Virus record (IMG/VR): IMGVR_UViG_3300026094_000039
Coordinates: 1-22,870 of that record
DNA: 22,870 nucleotides
DNA from: a virus
Direction: 5' to 3' (one strand)
Position 1 is the stretch's first letter; every line of letters starts with the position of its first letter. The notes below the pieces were generated by a model. That model saw nothing but the letters and a program-made list of their open reading frames with translations. It was not told the origin of the DNA and searched no databases. Of this stretch, positions 10,079 through 16,641 are shown in pieces. The translations under genes and the position numbers were made by a program.

Positions 10079-10445
10079 CGACCTCCTGAACTGCTATAAG
10101 CTCGGTATAGGTCTTTTCTTCGCCTTTGTCGATAGCGTATTCAATGTTAAATATCTTACCGTCATATTTTAATCTTAGCAGGTAGTCATACGTTTCTCTG
10201 TTATATCCCGCTGTTACAAAATCATCCCTGTAACGTGTTACAATCTTATACTTGACATTACCCCTTAACGCTCCTGTTTCGAGAGCCTCGCGCCCCGATT
10301 GTGGCTTAACATCCAACCATGCAGAGGCTAACGTAGTCCATGTTTGGGAAGTGCCACCTATACTATCGGTAGTCGTGGTATAATACTCAAACGTACCACG
10401 CTGTTTCATTAATCCGACATTATAAGAGCGATCACGAGTTTTCAA
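10065..10445 (-). CDS. head closure protein (SPP1 gp16-like / head-tail adaptor)
   Basis: A 126-residue protein matching the phage head-tail joining family: MKQRGTFEYYTTTTDSIGG followed by TWTTLASAWLDVKPQSGRE, then a second half with KYKIVTRYRDDF and YDGKIFNIEYAIDKGE. SPP1 gp16 and lambda gpFII homologues plug the connector after packaging. An internal start at M13 would give a 114-residue protein beginning at the conserved segment and is possible; I kept the first ATG because it gives the 4-nt ATGA overlap with the upstream gene. Confidence 0.9.
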   Translation of the reverse strand: MKTRDRSYNVGLMKQRGTFEYYTTTTDSIGGTSQTWTTLASAWLDVKPQSGREALETGALRGNVKYKIVTRYRDDFVTAGYNRETYDYLLRLKYDGKIFNIEYAIDKGEEKTYTELIAVQEVGDEA

Positions 10446-11041
10446 AACTTCCTGTATTTGATTAGTATCTTCTTACTTGAATTTGGTAACATAGAAACAC
10501 TCATTCCACCTACAACATCCTGCCTGTCTTCAAAGTTACTTAGTACAGCCTTCTTTAAAGCCAACCTTATGTCATTAGGTACGCCATCGAAAGCACTTAC
10601 ATAAACCACTTCCAATTTTGTGCGGTTGTAGGGGGATTCATATCCATAAACCTCATCTATAAGCAACCTACTACCTACTAACCGATAATCTTCATCAACG
10701 GTAAGGGTTGTTTCCGTTCCGTCGCTTTCAATCGTTTTAACGGTAGTTATAGAGTCAACTGGCTGAAACGGTAAAGGAACTTCACTACCAAAGTTTTCCC
10801 ATACAGCTGTAACATCTTTGCTTTTAACAGGTATCTGATAGTTGTTCTCAATATCTGCTGTAACCTCATCAATAAGATCCGAAATCAAATCATCTTCATC
10901 AGACGTATCTATTTTAAGCCATGACTTAGCATCTGCCGTGCTTATTAAATCACTTGCGCCATCAGTGTCAGATACAGTAAGCGTAAGAACACCGTTCTGC
11001 CCGTAGTTACCGCTTGATGTTCGTGTTCTATACAGCCCCAT
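10442..11041 (-). CDS. head-tail connector protein (gp6-like)
   Basis: A 199-residue protein with the gp6/gp15-like connector signature: LISTADAKSWLKIDTSDEDDLISDLIDEV at about residues 32-60 (the helical start of the family), then ENNYQIPV, PLPFQPVDSITTVKTI, and a C-terminal helix after DGVPNDIRLALKKAVLSNFEDR. The ring it forms sits under the portal. The family-like region begins at about residue 30; the first 30 residues are Ser/Gly/Thr-rich and may be flexible. It overlaps the upstream small gene by 14 nt and the adaptor by 4 nt. Confidence 0.9.
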   Translation of the reverse strand: MGLYRTRTSSGNYGQNGVLTLTVSDTDGASDLISTADAKSWLKIDTSDEDDLISDLIDEVTADIENNYQIPVKSKDVTAVWENFGSEVPLPFQPVDSITTVKTIESDGTETTLTVDEDYRLVGSRLLIDEVYGYESPYNRTKLEVVYVSAFDGVPNDIRLALKKAVLSNFEDRQDVVGGMSVSMLPNSSKKILIKYRKF

Positions 11042-11306
11042 TTATTTCATCCCTTTTTGTTTCGGCTTCCGCTTTAGTCAATCGGTCTATAACTTGATCG
11101 CCTTTCTTAACAAGAAACATAGGCCCGCCATCATGCTCAATGGTAGCTTTAGCATCGGCATTGTAAGCCCTTTTATCTTCTTTGGTTTCATATATAAGGT
11201 TTTTTCGCTTTAGCTTCTGAACATCTTGCTTGCGAACTTTAATCTTATCGCCTGCTTTTACGTTCTGTCCTTGCATTTTAAACGCTCGTGTTGCTCTGTA
11301 TTCCAT
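11028..11306 (-). CDS. small protein after major capsid, unknown function
   Basis: A 92-residue, Lys-rich protein. The first half looks like a small SH3-like barrel (RAFKMQGQNVKAGDKIKV), and the second half has another short beta pair (GGPMFLVKKGDQVIDRLTKAEAE) ending in a helix. It could be a head-completion or decoration protein by position, just after the major capsid gene and overlapping the connector gene. I do not recognise the family. Confidence 0.7.
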   Translation of the reverse strand: MEYRATRAFKMQGQNVKAGDKIKVRKQDVQKLKRKNLIYETKEDKRAYNADAKATIEHDGGPMFLVKKGDQVIDRLTKAEAETKRDEINGAV

Positions 11307-11327
11307 AAGTATAGATTAAATTAATAG

Positions 11328-11369
11328 AGGAACGGGCGGAGTCGAACCGCCCCAAGTTCCAAAGTTCCT
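11328..11369 (-). other. tRNA-like T-arm/acceptor structure after the capsid gene
   Basis: In the gap between the capsid stop (11379) and the next ATG (11306), the minus strand holds a 6-bp GC stem GGGCGG/CCGCCC with the 7-nt loop TTCGACT, a perfect match to the tRNA T-loop consensus and to the box GGTTCGANTCC. Directly 3' of it, GTTCCT pairs with AGGAAC further 5', giving an acceptor-like extension with an 11-nt bulge (TTTGGAACTTG) where the D and anticodon arms would be. It is followed by CTATTAATTTAAT, not CCA. No complete tRNA could be drawn: a cloverleaf reaching back into the capsid codons has a bulged acceptor and an unpaired anticodon stem. It may be an mRNA processing or stabilising element, a terminator-like hairpin, or a tRNA remnant. 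Confidence 0.6.
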
Positions 11370-11371
11370 TG

Positions 11372-11385
11372 CTCCTGTTTAGGAG
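11372..11385 (-). other. short hairpin spanning the capsid stop codon
   Basis: CTCCT-AAAC-AGGAG, a 5-bp perfect stem with a 4-nt loop, overlapping the TAA of the major capsid gene (11381-11379) and lying 3 nt before the tRNA-like structure. The two together form a compact structured block of about 58 nt between a high-copy gene and a low-copy gene, as expected of an element that separates their expression. No U-tract follows it. Confidence 0.4.
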
Positions 11386-12629
11386 TTACCTGCATTTTGT
11401 ATCGCAGTAGCGAAGTTACCAAATCGACCTGCATCAGGTAGATATGTTGGCAGTGCTAAACGACCTGAAATCTGAACAGTTACCAAGTCTTTGATAACAT
11501 TGTCCTGATCTTGTTCGTAGAATCGAACACTCATTCCTTCTCTATCAAATAGAGTAGTCAACTGTGGGAAGTCAGCGACTAAGAAGTCATTAATGTTACC
11601 GTCTGTGCTGTTAATAGCGTTAGTTGCTACAATAGGAACGCCCATAACTCGTGGCATCTGATTACCGAATACTACTTCCTGTGGGAAAATGTATTGACCG
11701 TCAGCATCCTTGCGCTGAATCATTTCGAAGTATCGTGAAATACTTACCATGATAGCAGAAGGGTTGTAGTTATCGGTTCTGATTTGCTGAATAGCTTGCA
11801 ACAGTACATCATATTCCTGTGCATTAGCATCGCCAGTATAAGCATCTAACGTATAATCGGTTGCAGTGGTGGTCAAACCGTCAAGGTCTGCTCCTGTACC
11901 GCCTCCGTATAGTAACTGAGCATCTTCTTCATTCATGTACTTCTGTGAGCCACGCAATGAGATATGAGAAGCCAACCCCTGTGTGTCATTCAATGCTTCC
12001 TTAGAAACACGGAAATGAGCAGAGATTTTAGTTACGTTTGCATCAGTTGCTGTCAAGTCGAAATCACTTTGACCTGATGCGTTGTTTTCAGAACTTGTAG
12101 CCGTTCCATCAGTATAGTTAGATTCCTGAATATAACGAATCTTATCAGAGCTTGTAGTTCCTTGTGGTAAGAACTGACGTACTCGAACCTGACGCTCTGC
12201 ATTGAACTTAAAGCCAGGTACATAGTCAGCAGGCACTACATCATTAGTGTAAGCATCTGCTTCCGTAATAACGGCTTTAGTCTGCATTGCAAATGGTCTG
12301 CCATGCTCTTTGAAAGCATCCATCTGCTCTTTATTCTCAGATAAAGCATCAATCATTTGGTCTTTAAAACTACGTGGTGTGTTTCCACCGCCACTTAATC
12401 TACCGCCTGCTTTCTCGATAGCATCAATGCGCTCTCGCTCTGCTAATAGCTTTTCTTCAAGGTTCTTATTCTGATTCTTAAGAGTTTCCTCTACTTCGCC
12501 TGTGTTCTTGGCTTGCTCTTCCATTTTGGTTTGCAAGGCTTCAAGATCGGCTTCATATTTTTTGGCCTTTTCCTCGTATGTTGCTTTTACGTCAGACAAA
12601 CCTTCCTGTAATGTTTTTTCAATATCCAT
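11379..12629 (-). CDS. major capsid protein (HK97 fold)
   Basis: A 416-residue protein. Residues 1-75 are a charged coiled coil (EEKAKKYEADLEALQTKMEE and similar), the delta/scaffold domain normally removed by the prohead protease. The Gly-rich RLSGGGN segment near 77-84 marks the end of that domain, and the exact cut may fall between it and about residue 112. The rest has the HK97-fold pattern: VPADYVPGFKFNAERQVRVRQ (E-loop and N-arm region), SAHFRVSKEALNDTQGL, QLLYGGGTGADLDGLTT, and the spine/A-domain close FDREGMSVRFYEQDQDNVIKD. The start overlaps the protease by 11 nt, the usual protease-capsid pair. Confidence 0.95.
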   Translation of the reverse strand: MDIEKTLQEGLSDVKATYEEKAKKYEADLEALQTKMEEQAKNTGEVEETLKNQNKNLEEKLLAERERIDAIEKAGGRLSGGGNTPRSFKDQMIDALSENKEQMDAFKEHGRPFAMQTKAVITEADAYTNDVVPADYVPGFKFNAERQVRVRQFLPQGTTSSDKIRYIQESNYTDGTATSSENNASGQSDFDLTATDANVTKISAHFRVSKEALNDTQGLASHISLRGSQKYMNEEDAQLLYGGGTGADLDGLTTTATDYTLDAYTGDANAQEYDVLLQAIQQIRTDNYNPSAIMVSISRYFEMIQRKDADGQYIFPQEVVFGNQMPRVMGVPIVATNAINSTDGNINDFLVADFPQLTTLFDREGMSVRFYEQDQDNVIKDLVTVQISGRLALPTYLPDAGRFGNFATAIQNAGNS

Positions 12630-13875: not shown

Positions 13876-14053
13876 AAAAGAATTAGAACGAATCGACAAC
13901 TTACCGCTTATAGAAAGAGCAGAGGAACGGTTAAAGCATAACTTAGCTGTTAGTAAAGAGGATATAAGTTTAATGATTGAGTATTTGAGAGTGTTTAAGA
14001 AGCATCCCACAGATATTGATGTTGATGAATATAATTTTAAGAATAGCCTTTAA
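13865..14053 (+). CDS. 62-residue helical protein, third gene of the cassette
   Basis: A charged, mostly helical protein (ISEKELERIDNLPLIERAEE at the start, then SKEDISLMIEYLRVFKKHPT). It shares the Glu/Leu-rich E-x-ELE/ELD type of start with the 41-residue protein before it (TEQELDHI against SEKELERI), suggesting that the two are related or that one arose by duplication. Its end overlaps the convergent glycosyltransferase gene by 17 nt, so this cassette and that gene read into each other. Function unknown. Confidence 0.6.
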   Translation: MISEKELERIDNLPLIERAEERLKHNLAVSKEDISLMIEYLRVFKKHPTDIDVDEYNFKNSL

Positions 14054-14720
14054 TATCACATATTCCATCTGCAACCTTGTTCTGTTCCTCACAGTTCATC
14101 TTATGCTCTCGATATATAGAATAGTCTGAGTTTGTAATAAGCGATTTAAGCCACCAAATCCGATGCTGAATACATAGTGCCGGTATGCCACGTTTGGCAA
14201 GCTCTAACCCACACATAAGGTCGCTCATCTTGTATTTGTCCCAAGTCAACGGGTCAAAGCGTAGTAATGAAGTATGAAAAGCACTTACACCTGTTCCCGG
14301 TACATCTATCTCCCAATTACCCTTAACAGTGCGATTAAATGCAAACCTCTTATGTCCTGAGTAGTAATCTAACCCCTTGCCATCTAATTTTCTGCCATGA
14401 TACGTGATAAAGTGCTTATTGTACTTCTTTAGATATCTAAGCGTATTCTCTATGTAGTTATCAGGGTATTCAATATCGTCATCGCAAGTAAAGAAGTATT
14501 CATCTTTTGCATAAGGTAAGAATGCAAACTTTCCGTTATCGGTTAGATCACGCCCTGTGTAAACTTTAACTATATCTCTTTCAATATCGGGTAGGTAGTC
14601 ATTAGCATACACCCTAATAACATCGGGCTTTACTGTTTGACCTAACAGGCTCTCTATAACTTTAGGCAGCAACTCCTTACGTCCTGAGAATGTAGCTAAA
14701 TTGACTGATATTTTACTCAT
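14037..14720 (-). CDS. glycosyltransferase, GT-A fold (GT2-like)
   Basis: A 227-residue protein with a family-2-like start (ISVNLATFSGRKELLPKVIESLLGQTVKPD), the nucleotide-sugar metal motif FTCDDDIEYPDNYI (D80-D82), and a later GTGVSAFHTSLL region that may form the acceptor side. The C-terminal half has CGLELAKRGIPALCI, which corresponds to the conserved acidic/hydrophobic block of GT2 enzymes. It lies last in the glycan insert, downstream of the sulfotransferase-like gene with an 8-nt overlap. Substrate unknown. Confidence 0.85.
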   Translation of the reverse strand: MSKISVNLATFSGRKELLPKVIESLLGQTVKPDVIRVYANDYLPDIERDIVKVYTGRDLTDNGKFAFLPYAKDEYFFTCDDDIEYPDNYIENTLRYLKKYNKHFITYHGRKLDGKGLDYYSGHKRFAFNRTVKGNWEIDVPGTGVSAFHTSLLRFDPLTWDKYKMSDLMCGLELAKRGIPALCIQHRIWWLKSLITNSDYSIYREHKMNCEEQNKVADGICDIKGYS

Positions 14721-15201
14721 GGCTTATATGGTTAGCAAATAAGAATGTTTCGTCATCATAACCCTCTTTAGGTGGCTTAATAGCTTCAAATTCTTTCAGT
14801 ACAGCCTCACAATCAATATCTAACCCTAATATGTTCTTAATGGTATAGATACACTCTAACGGCTTATTTACTATTTCATCATAGTGCATGTGTATTGACT
14901 TTCTACGCCACAATTCAAGTTGTTTCCGCATCCATGTAATACTTCGCTTGCTACCACCAAATACACGCTGTAAGCTATTCAATATATCCTTATCGTTTCT
15001 GTCTGTGGTGAATATGTAATCAGCTTTATTGTATAAACTTTTATCGAATGGGTGCATCTTTATTATATTAACCCCATCCTTTATCGTATAGGCTTCACCC
15101 CAAGTATGTACGTCTAAGCCCGCATGTAAACAGCATAACCTAACCATATTGAATTGTGCTGTACTCCCCGAACGCTTTATTCCGCTAATTACAATTATCA
15201 T
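14713..15201 (-). CDS. sulfotransferase-like protein
   Basis: A 162-residue protein with a nucleotide-binding loop GIKRSGST at residues 7-14, matching the 5'-phosphosulfate-binding loop of PAPS sulfotransferases better than a standard P-loop kinase (no GK[ST]). Further matches to that fold are YIFTTDRNDKDILNSLQ, equivalent to the 3'-phosphate-binding Arg/Asp segment, and SIHMHYDEIVNKP...IKNILGL, equivalent to the LRYEDLxxDP...FLGL region near the C-terminus of such enzymes. It is shorter than typical (about 250-300 aa), so the acceptor region must be minimal. A sulfotransferase would transfer sulfate from PAPS to a sugar or tyrosine; the sugar is favoured because of the neighbouring glycosyltransferases. 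It is not certain that it is active. Confidence 0.7.
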   Translation of the reverse strand: MIIVISGIKRSGSTAQFNMVRLCCLHAGLDVHTWGEAYTIKDGVNIIKMHPFDKSLYNKADYIFTTDRNDKDILNSLQRVFGGSKRSITWMRKQLELWRRKSIHMHYDEIVNKPLECIYTIKNILGLDIDCEAVLKEFEAIKPPKEGYDDETFLFANHISHE

Positions 15202-15202
15202 T

Positions 15203-15808
15203 TTAATATCTATATGATTCTCTCATATTTTTTATTATGTGGTGTCTTTTGTTTCTTTGTTCTAAATCATTCCATCTTGATTTTTGTTTTGAATGAATTC
15301 GATAATTATATACAACCTTATCACAATACCCTATTTTAGCACCATTTTTAAGCATATTAAGGTGGAAATCTAATTCTTCACCATAAAGCAATGTTTCATT
15401 GAATTTAACCTTATTAAACCAAGATGTTTTATATAATCCTGTACCACCCCTTATTGTATTCTTATTAATAAGCTCTGTAACTGTGGGTGTTGTGTTTTCA
15501 GACTTTACAATAAATGAATTATCATTAGAAAAGTTTTTACCATGTCCATGTATGAAATCATAACCATTAATAGCTTTTAACCTATTTTCTATACTATCAG
15601 AAGGCAATAAATCATCTTCATGTAAATAACACCAATATTTTGTATCACATTTTTCAATTCCTCTATTTGTATTATATGACAAATTTTTATCTGAATGCGA
15701 TAGTATTAATTTACATTTAATTGTTTGATTTTTTACACTCTGTATAGCTTCGTTTAAAAACCCCCTATCTTTGTTGTAAGGGATTATAACAGTTACACTT
15801 TTAGTCAT
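15203..15808 (-). CDS. glycosyltransferase family 2
   Basis: A 201-residue GT2 enzyme: TVIIPYNKDRGFLNEAIQSV at the start, LSYNTNRGI for nucleotide binding, YLHEDDLLPSDS with the metal-binding Asp residues (63-68), and a GEELDFHLNMLKNGAKIGY block with the catalytic-base-like Glu/Asp, followed by the common YNYRIHSKQKS end. By eye it is more AT-rich than the virion genes, which would fit separate acquisition. It sits 1 nt upstream of the sulfotransferase-like gene on the same strand. Confidence 0.9.
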   Translation of the reverse strand: MTKSVTVIIPYNKDRGFLNEAIQSVKNQTIKCKLILSHSDKNLSYNTNRGIEKCDTKYWCYLHEDDLLPSDSIENRLKAINGYDFIHGHGKNFSNDNSFIVKSENTTPTVTELINKNTIRGGTGLYKTSWFNKVKFNETLLYGEELDFHLNMLKNGAKIGYCDKVVYNYRIHSKQKSRWNDLEQRNKRHHIIKNMRESYRY

Positions 15809-15862
15809 GATTATTATATTTATATCGTTTAGCGTAAAAAAAATCAGGATTATAACTTATTA

Positions 15863-16015
15863 CTATACATCTATGCCTTCATTAATAAGAATATCCAATA
15901 ATTCATCTTCCATTTCTTGCCAGTCATCCAAATTATTATGATTTAAATGACCGCCACCACCTGATCTTAATTCCCAATATAATAGTAGGATAAATTGTTT
16001 TGTTTGCTCTTTCAT
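15863..16015 (-). CDS. 50-residue protein in the glycan insert
   Basis: A short protein with a hydrophobic N-terminal helix (FILLLYWELR), a Gly4-His turn and an acidic helical C-terminus (DDWQEMEDELLDILI). Its ATG overlaps the stop of the upstream glycosyltransferase (ATGA), the main reason to believe it is real. It is followed by a 54-nt AT-rich gap with a T8 run (minus strand) before the next gene. Function unknown. Confidence 0.5.
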   Translation of the reverse strand: MKEQTKQFILLLYWELRSGGGGHLNHNNLDDWQEMEDELLDILINEGIDV

Positions 16016-16641
16016 CGGCTTATTAGTGGGTTTCGTTTCCGTTCTTCGGGATGCATTAAGCTCTTATGATCCCCGTGATAAGCTAAGGATTTTTTAGGAA
16101 TATACATAGGAACATTTGCCTTATAGAATTTCCTTGATTGCTGTTGACCTACCCCCGAACTAATACCATCTACCTTGAACCGCATCGGATTAATCCAATC
16201 CATATCAAAACCCAATACTTCCAATGCTTGGCGGTTGCAGAAATAGTTACAGTCAACATACGATCCGAATATTCTATCATCTTCCTCTCTGTGCTTTATT
16301 GGTGTCCATCCTCTATGCCCGCCTGCGTTGTGTACGTTATAAGCATAATCCCCTTCCATTGATGCATGGATAGTATGTATTCGGTCTAAGTCAACATTGC
16401 TCAAATCATCCTGTAAAAAGATAAACAAGTCATCATCGGACTCTTTACACATCTGCAACGCATAACGCCACGTGAGCCAAAAGAACTCCTTCCCTAAATG
16501 ATGTAATCGGTAATAATCACATCTATCTATAAACGGTGCGGGATCGTACTCAGAACCATCATCCAATACAACACAATGCCCCACTTCATCGAGTAGCTTA
16601 GAGAGCATTTTTGGGCGGTTGTAGCTGAATATAATGGTCAT
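16012..16641 (-). CDS. glycosyltransferase, GT-A fold, divergent
   Basis: A 209-residue protein with the start MTIIFSYNRPKMLSKLLDE and VVLDDGSEYDP, both typical of GT-A nucleotide-sugar binding, and the metal motif IFLQDDLSNVD (D78-D79). The C-terminal part (VDCNYFCNRQALEVLGF, then a YHGDHKS histidine near the end) resembles GT2/GT-A acceptor-side segments. It is the first of three glycosyltransferases in this insert. The 50-residue gene downstream overlaps its stop. Confidence 0.8.
   Translation of the reverse strand: MTIIFSYNRPKMLSKLLDEVGHCVVLDDGSEYDPAPFIDRCDYYRLHHLGKEFFWLTWRYALQMCKESDDDLFIFLQDDLSNVDLDRIHTIHASMEGDYAYNVHNAGGHRGWTPIKHREEDDRIFGSYVDCNYFCNRQALEVLGFDMDWINPMRFKVDGISSGVGQQQSRKFYKANVPMYIPKKSLAYHGDHKSLMHPEERKRNPLISR

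Follow-up and report, generated by a model that had tools for sequence, protein, structure and literature searches.

A widespread anticodon-less mini-tRNA in phage operons and its possible function as a boundary mark for host tRNA-processing enzymes

Why should a phage keep a tRNA-like element without an anticodon between its major capsid gene and the gene that follows? This question is raised by a viral record (IMG/VR IMGVR_UViG_3300026094_000039), positions 1 to 22,870 of which were analyzed and are referred to here as the window. The structural genes around the element are all encoded on the minus strand, and the element is therefore read on the minus strand, too. The end of the capsid ORF at 11379 and the next ATG at 11306 delimit the gap of 72 nt that had been described in an earlier note, and within it lies an anticodon-less mini-tRNA of 44 nt (11370-11327), with the 5' to 3' order AAGGAAC, TTTGGAACTTG, GGGCGG, TTCGACT, CCGCCC, and GTTCCTC (Table 1). 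The same note had recognized a tRNA-like T-arm and an acceptor pairing of AGGAAC with GTTCCT, both of which have passed the check for conservation and covariation in relatives that is set out below. Six of the seven acceptor pairs form in the window copy, A1 being opposite C. The linker starts with a mini D-arm, TT-TGG-AA (11363-11357), and continues with CTTG, the first and last bases of which covary. The second hairpin that had been seen over the capsid stop codon is present in the window as well (11385-11372), with the TAA at 11381-11379 inside it. The head-tail connector gene had been thought to come next; it does follow, but only after a gene of 92 aa that lies directly downstream of the element. 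At 14037-16641, also on the minus strand, several ORFs that by sequence resemble glycosyltransferases separate the gene of the minor head protein from the protease-capsid module.

Table 1. The mini-tRNA and its neighbors in the window, listed in the reading direction of the minus strand.
Feature	Positions	Strand	Basis or remark
Major capsid gene, 416 aa, HK97-type, PF05065, phrog_10	11379..12629	-	Gene upstream of element
Stop-codon hairpin CTCCT-AAAC-AGGAG, 1 nt from element	11372..11385	-	RNA fold and clade comparison
Acceptor-like stem, 5' strand AAGGAAC	11364..11370	-	Covariation with 11327-11333, 58 distinct elements
Linker TTTGGAACTTG, exactly 11 nt	11353..11363	-	GG presence and covarying pairs 1-7 and 2-6
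T-stem, 5' strand GGGCGG	11347..11352	-	Alignment and covariation
T-loop TTCGACT	11340..11346	-	Sequence reading and alignment
T-stem, 3' strand CCGCCC	11334..11339	-	Alignment and covariation
Acceptor-like stem, 3' strand GTTCCTC	11327..11333	-	Alignment and covariation
A/T-rich unstructured leader of next gene	11307..11326	-	Capsid-clade relatives also without structure there
Next gene, 92 aa, function unassigned, DUF7210-like below Pfam cut-off	11028..11306	-	ORF and domain search
Head-tail connector gene, PF05135, phrog_442	10442..11041	-	Domain/family search

RNAfold on the window yields as top fold an alternative pairing, that of GGAAC in the linker with GTTCC (z -2.1 and -2.5), and the window copy repeats AGGAAC/GGAAC. 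Which pairing is kept was decided by the comparison of relatives and not by the minimum-energy fold. A search of viral contigs with the capsid protein provided 80 loci. Among 66 close capsid relatives (62-100% identity) the gap is complete in 65, the sequence of the other one (L035) ending too early for a judgement, and the element is present in 65 of these 65. A pattern search places it at 64 loci, plus the window and the window's copy L081; in L043, which recurs as L162, the element is present with a deviating linker. Within this clade acceptor ends interchange with compensation (AAGGATG/CATCCTT, AAGGAAA/TTTCCTT, AAGGAAG/CTTCCTT, and AAGGAAC/GTTCCT(C)), and the T-stems vary in the same compensated manner. 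All 26 of the 26 distinct sequences of the capsid clade retain a hairpin around the stop codon, with varying register and a spacing of 0-2 nt to the element. In L049, L050, L052, L054, L055, and L077, the region of this hairpin is tandem-duplicated (GGTAATTCTTAAAATTGCCC x2) before the element. A chance origin, considered unlikely from the start, is ruled out by the conservation in 65 of 65 relatives together with the covariation.

Pattern scans that constrained linker and T-loop and left the acceptor free identified at least 113 deduplicated contexts, at least 41 of them in the capsid clade and at least 72 elsewhere, 11 of the latter being from bacterial genomes only. Among the matches listed, at least six of the seven acceptor pairs form in 57 of the 72 non-clade contexts (all seven in 46), a count that includes L130 and L171, which are absent from alignment A2; when acceptor strands are re-dealt, a mean of 8.2 is obtained instead of 57. 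The covariation score for 58 distinct elements amounts to 0.921, compared to 0.210 after shuffling and 0.11-0.22 for slid controls. As A2 was chosen by the pattern TTTGGAA-N8-GGTTC[AG]A-N-TCC plus at least 6/7 acceptor pairs, the selection itself dictates the pattern columns and some of the acceptor count, and leaves linker pair 8-11 and the four outer pairs of the T-stem free. In alignment A3, for which mostly perfect stems were demanded, only the mini D-stem and the linker pair are free; A3 took every second TTTGGAA member only, and L129 was dropped. The genes upstream of the element are varied, comprising capsids, SPFH/Band-7 proteins, ArdC-like antirestriction proteins, and small ORFs without assigned function. 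The element does occur behind other capsid genes, where the earlier note had proposed to look for it (the mutual identity of three capsid proteins upstream of it is only 20-26%), but its occurrence after non-capsid genes means that it is not capsid-specific. The acceptor of L207 is identical to that of the window, and this case may reflect common descent. That the mini-tRNA is a real, widespread, and strongly covarying RNA of phage operons is nearly certain.

The earlier note had also suggested a tRNA-gene remnant. A T-arm followed by an acceptor 3' strand is what an att fragment derived from the 3' end of a host tRNA would be expected to look like, and att fragments of tRNAs are described as common (PMC9897764). 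An origin as remnant or att fragment has practically no probability left, as the 57 contexts contain (among the matches listed) 31 different acceptor strands, the partners of which have changed in compensation, the mini D-arm is intact and covarying, some phages hold many copies, and the covariation score contradicts it. A tRNA-derived att site was rejected because of the compensated changes on both sides.

When 84,980 bacterial genomes were scanned once, 12 pattern matches were obtained, of which L196 and L198 carry the element by stem pairing, L202 passes the pairing cut and was set aside as marginal, and nine look like chance. Model R2, run over 395 genomes of one phylum, gave two matches, one being the query genome. 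On this near-absence, bacterial genomes were rejected as the home of the element, which is essentially viral. In a BLAST search of 50,697 phage records with a short composite element, most matches were to the T-arm, and the match to P-GSP1 led to the cyanophage class discussed further below. A match in a Pseudomonas phage was set aside as a tRNA-Arg(ACG)-like sequence; inspected by eye, phage vB_PseuGesM_254 (L218, about 1962-2040) has such a sequence with an encoded CCA, unannotated, in a tRNA cluster. The SPFH neighborhoods of two crAss-like phages contain no element.

Some phages possess about ten tandem copies, one behind each of several small ORFs. Model R2 recognizes thirteen sites in L224 and, in L225, eleven; a number of these sites are partial or have a longer linker. 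L224 has no relative among the phage records; L225 is Mycobacterium phage Fowlmouth (100% identity), the host of which is M. smegmatis mc2 155 and the record of which shows no annotation in the element-bearing gaps. A strict script applied to gaps of 40-700 nt detects elements in 4 of 15 gaps of Fowlmouth and 6 of 15 of Cuke, its 6-bp rule missing copies with shorter acceptors, so that several more are visible by eye. A larger version that has a long additional arm and terminates in ACCA occurs in the Fowlmouth gap after 5933 (L240) and in the Cuke gap after 6027 (L241), between a small ORF and a protein of roughly 380 aa. The best matches of the window's terminase are from phages of Bacteroides, Cellulophaga, Polaribacter, and Flavobacterium, and the hosts of element-bearing phages therefore span at least Mycobacterium and, for the window, to judge from terminase similarity, probably Bacteroidota.

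What kind of fold has been conserved? The earlier reading was right about the length of the linker, 11 nt, but the linker is a shrunken D-arm with GG rather than a mere replacement of the D and anticodon arms. Model R1 turned up copies with other linkers (CTTGGAGC, TATGGTAC, CATGGTGC, AATGGTTC, and CTCGGAG). A linker-free scan for perfect stems plus T-loop, covering 102 loci with capsid-clade loci excluded, yielded 80 distinct elements, many of which entered through the TTTGGAA pattern and the remainder otherwise. All 80 combine a GG in D-loop-like position with a canonical T-loop, compared to a GG frequency of 31% in background 11-mers. In 64 of the 80 elements an NGG triloop is closed by a 2-bp stem with both pairs formed, and among 36 distinct 11-nt linkers pair 1-7 forms in 31 and pair 2-6 in 35, either count being reached by 0 of 2000 shuffles. 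Covariation of linker pair 8-11 (7/2000 shuffles) is not clear once TTTGGAA members are left out (109/2000). The linker is thus a tiny D-arm with a covarying 2-bp stem and an NGG triloop.

In tRNA, two G residues of the D-loop dock onto the T-loop and thereby make the elbow of the molecule. By analogy, the GG of the linker may dock on the T-loop of the element to form a tRNA-like elbow. Exceptions to the GG rule, outside the 80 elements, are one gap of Cuke (L241, after 3082) and its Fowlmouth counterpart (L240, after 3484), where the T-loop is TGCGAGT and the linker is without GG; the same arrays hold GG-bearing copies. More generally, TGCRANT versions of the T-loop, encountered in cyanophages and in one gap each of Fowlmouth and Cuke, go without GG, as opposed to TTCRANT versions. 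It looks as if T-loop base 55 and the GG were lost together, and the TGCRANT versions without GG would fit a docking of GG on the T-loop.

Most elements are located close to the end of a gene. In 69 of the 80, a stop codon on the same strand is close by, the element starting at -8 to +15 nt relative to it, compared to 10 of 80 for antisense and 8 of 80 for random positions; the distance from stop to element is bimodal, 20 elements having -2 and 29 having +6 to +9, and stop codon and element overlap in 28 of the 69 near-stop cases. A site bound by the ribosome or by a protein of phage or host, which would steer translation, re-initiation, or termination between neighboring genes, could explain why the stop codon is in the element or a few nt from it in most cases and why arrays exist behind successive genes in Fowlmouth and L224. 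We consider this rather improbable, as capsids, SPFH proteins, ArdC-like proteins, and small ORFs share the element, so that there is no single product on which regulation could act.

In distant capsid relatives the capsid gene is followed by a hairpin resembling an intrinsic terminator in 14 of 14 loci (four of them identical and others near-identical), and Cellulophaga phage phi10:1 and Flavobacterium phage 11b display such a hairpin downstream of their capsid genes, too; the element was not found after the capsid gene in the 21-31 kb examined of each of phi10:1, 11b, Versailles, and P12002L. Since the element holds the position of the terminators of relatives and its T-arm is a GC hairpin, one might suspect an unusual transcription terminator or attenuator, and a looser terminator script matches 17 of 41 capsid-clade elements, through the T-arm and a pyrimidine-rich tail. 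Such a function is, however, very improbable: T-loop, mini D-arm, and acceptor are conserved beyond the needs of a terminator, the genes that come next mostly start no more than about 50 nt away and belong to one gene string, and terminator calling on the window gives no site at the element, for which reason an intrinsic terminator was rejected.

A stable downstream hairpin is present in 51 of 79 cases from non-clade phages, and 47 of the 51 begin 0-4 nt past the acceptor. The capsid clade is without it (30 of the 41 capsid-clade rows used), suggesting that end protection varies between phages. The base after the acceptor stem is a near-constant C, in 71 of the 80 elements and in 38 of 41 of the capsid clade; to our knowledge, neither RNase Z nor RNase P needs a C after the stem. 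Trailers starting with CC are encountered in 0 of 80 elements and 0 of 41 in the capsid clade, a weak result, as only about 3 of 80 would be expected from composition. With acceptor, T-arm, and no CC after the discriminator, the element has the sequence of a candidate RNase Z substrate, in what is a weak test of a putative cleavage. An encoded NCCA is present in 0 of the 80 elements.

We propose, with a probability of about one half, that the element marks a boundary in the mRNA for recognition by host RNase Z and/or RNase P and is accompanied by end-protecting hairpins. This proposal is based on the exchange with terminators, the flush hairpins, and the conservation of features that RNase P and RNase Z read; recruitment of these enzymes or protection of the 3' end, as envisaged in the earlier note, is still the best reading in the light of the terminators in distant relatives and the flush hairpins. 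Within the polycistronic phage transcript, the mini-tRNA would fold into a tRNA elbow and an acceptor helix and would be recognized by host enzymes acting on tRNA ends. RNase Z would cut just 3' of the acceptor stem and/or RNase P just 5' of it, and the cut would separate the capsid message from the message of the next gene and uncouple their expression. The end of the upstream piece might be shielded by the mini-tRNA or a flush hairpin, and in many other phages a hairpin might shield the downstream piece. For elements whose acceptor is overlapped by the stop codon, the upstream message would stay intact only after a 3' cut, by RNase Z, while in the capsid clade a cut by either RNase P or RNase Z would leave it intact.

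RNase P and RNase Z are described as clamping the tRNA elbow, the D-loop appearing dispensable for RNase P (PMC4919913), and the non-tRNA substrates of RNase P include phage C4 RNA and the T4 gene 32 mRNA (PMC11143913). Cytosines directly after the discriminator are stated to suppress RNase Z, and armless tRNAs to be processed by archaeal RNase Z enzymes, among which the relevant passage does not list the Bacillus enzyme (PMC7479834). That this passage does not show the Bacillus RNase Z accepting armless tRNAs speaks against cutting (PMC7479834), as do the near-constant C after the stem, the 6-bp T-stem, and the alternative fold preferred in the window. The element might also stay uncut and form, within the 3' untranslated region, a compact roadblock against 3' exonucleases that protects the upstream message, or insulate neighboring genes, possibly with a host tRNA-binding protein bound to it. 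Its place directly behind stop codons, where terminators are otherwise found, and its compact, covarying fold would agree with such a role, but a plain hairpin would protect equally well, the retained GG, T-loop, and fixed geometry of acceptor and T-arm point to a reader of tRNA shape, and the flush downstream hairpins suggest a new 5' end, so that we regard an uncut roadblock as unlikely.

The wider proposal would be that an unnamed and widespread mini-tRNA family, whose members would count as some of the smallest tRNA mimics in nature, serves as punctuation in phage operons from Bacteroidota to Mycobacterium, each mark being cut by host RNase Z and/or RNase P, similar to the punctuation of mitochondrial transcripts; we put it forward tentatively as a whole, at somewhat less than even odds. 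If the elements mark cuts, phages would delimit messages without terminators or promoters, via enzymes which their hosts need for their own tRNAs. Unannotated gaps of 80-100 nt in phage operons, including those of cultured mycobacteriophages, would be accounted for, genome annotation would gain a new RNA family, and a tRNA-style punctuation of bacterial-virus mRNA would become open to laboratory test. A very small natural tRNA mimic could also serve as a probe of which parts of a tRNA are read by processing enzymes.

How does the element compare to known RNAs? ARAGORN detects 0 tRNAs in the window and no tRNA at most of the other element sites scanned; an additional site, in L135, received a tRNA label from the script used. 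A canonical tRNA gene was rejected, there being no finder match, a linker of 11 nt only, and no anticodon and D-arms of normal size. The element shares with canonical tRNA the acceptor beside the T-arm, with a TTCRANY T-loop arm directly before the acceptor 3' strand, and the GG in a D-loop-like triloop. It differs in having no anticodon arm, a D-stem of 2 bp, a T-stem of 6 bp instead of 5, and a length of 44 nt, and in its location within mRNA at stop codons. None of 4227 Rfam models comes near its gathering score at the element (window and cyanophage loci searched to E 5, 15 other loci to E 2), and sub-threshold matches to Plastid-ycf2 in L137, L194, and L139 are on the strand opposite to the element. 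In literature searches among open-licence papers, no title or abstract described such phage elements.

The tRNA-like domain of tmRNA is a precedent for the design, consisting of the upper half of a tRNA with acceptor, T-arm, and a reduced D region. Unlike tmRNA, the element is without a tag reading frame and without pseudoknots and occurs in many copies in some genomes. tmRNA was rejected, as the window has no Rfam tmRNA match and other copies show sub-threshold matches of the T-arm only. ARAGORN calls permuted tmRNAs at L130:2976-3383 and L171:1994-2362 (minus strand), in large phage contigs with tRNA clusters; the pattern matches in L130 and L171 overlap these calls, probably represent ends of two-piece tmRNAs, and were set apart.

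In the cyanopodoviruses P-GSP1, P-SSP7, P-SSP2, and P-SSP3 (the P-SSP2 copy being known solely from a BLAST match), a tRNA-like element is located between psbA and the capsid gene. Like the mini-tRNA, it combines T-arm and acceptor and adjoins a capsid gene in a phage operon; it differs by a TGCGANT T-loop, a 5-bp acceptor, and an extra hairpin in place of the mini D-arm, and model R2 scores are low, with 17.9 bits for P-GSP1 and 18.7 bits for MedDCM-OCT-S45-C4. Among the cyanopodovirus loci L217, L223, L243, and L244, the T-loop of L223 is TGCAATT. The extra hairpin is compensated between P-GSP1 and P-SSP7 (ATCAA/TTGAT and ATCGG/CCGAT), and in P-SSP7 a tiny ORF behind a Glutamine-II-like motif terminates inside the tRNA-like element. 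Weinberg et al. reportedly described in 2017, under the name TLS-PhotoRC, a tRNA-like structure by photosynthetic reaction-centre genes in marine and cyanophage sequences, and the psbA-capsid element may be this motif.

The tRNA-like structures at the 3' ends of plant RNA viruses, described as RNase P substrates (PMC11143913), are likewise tRNA mimics on the 3' side of a viral message. In contrast to them, the phage element is internal to operons of DNA phages and has neither an anticodon mimic nor a CCA end. Mitochondrial transcripts carry tRNAs between coding genes, which are excised by RNase P and RNase Z. There, too, tRNA-shaped marks separate coding genes, but the mitochondrial marks are real tRNAs, whereas those of the phages are anticodon-less and phage-encoded, and their cutting is proposed. 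The design of the phage element resembles both the tRNA-like domain of tmRNA and the tRNA punctuation of mitochondria.
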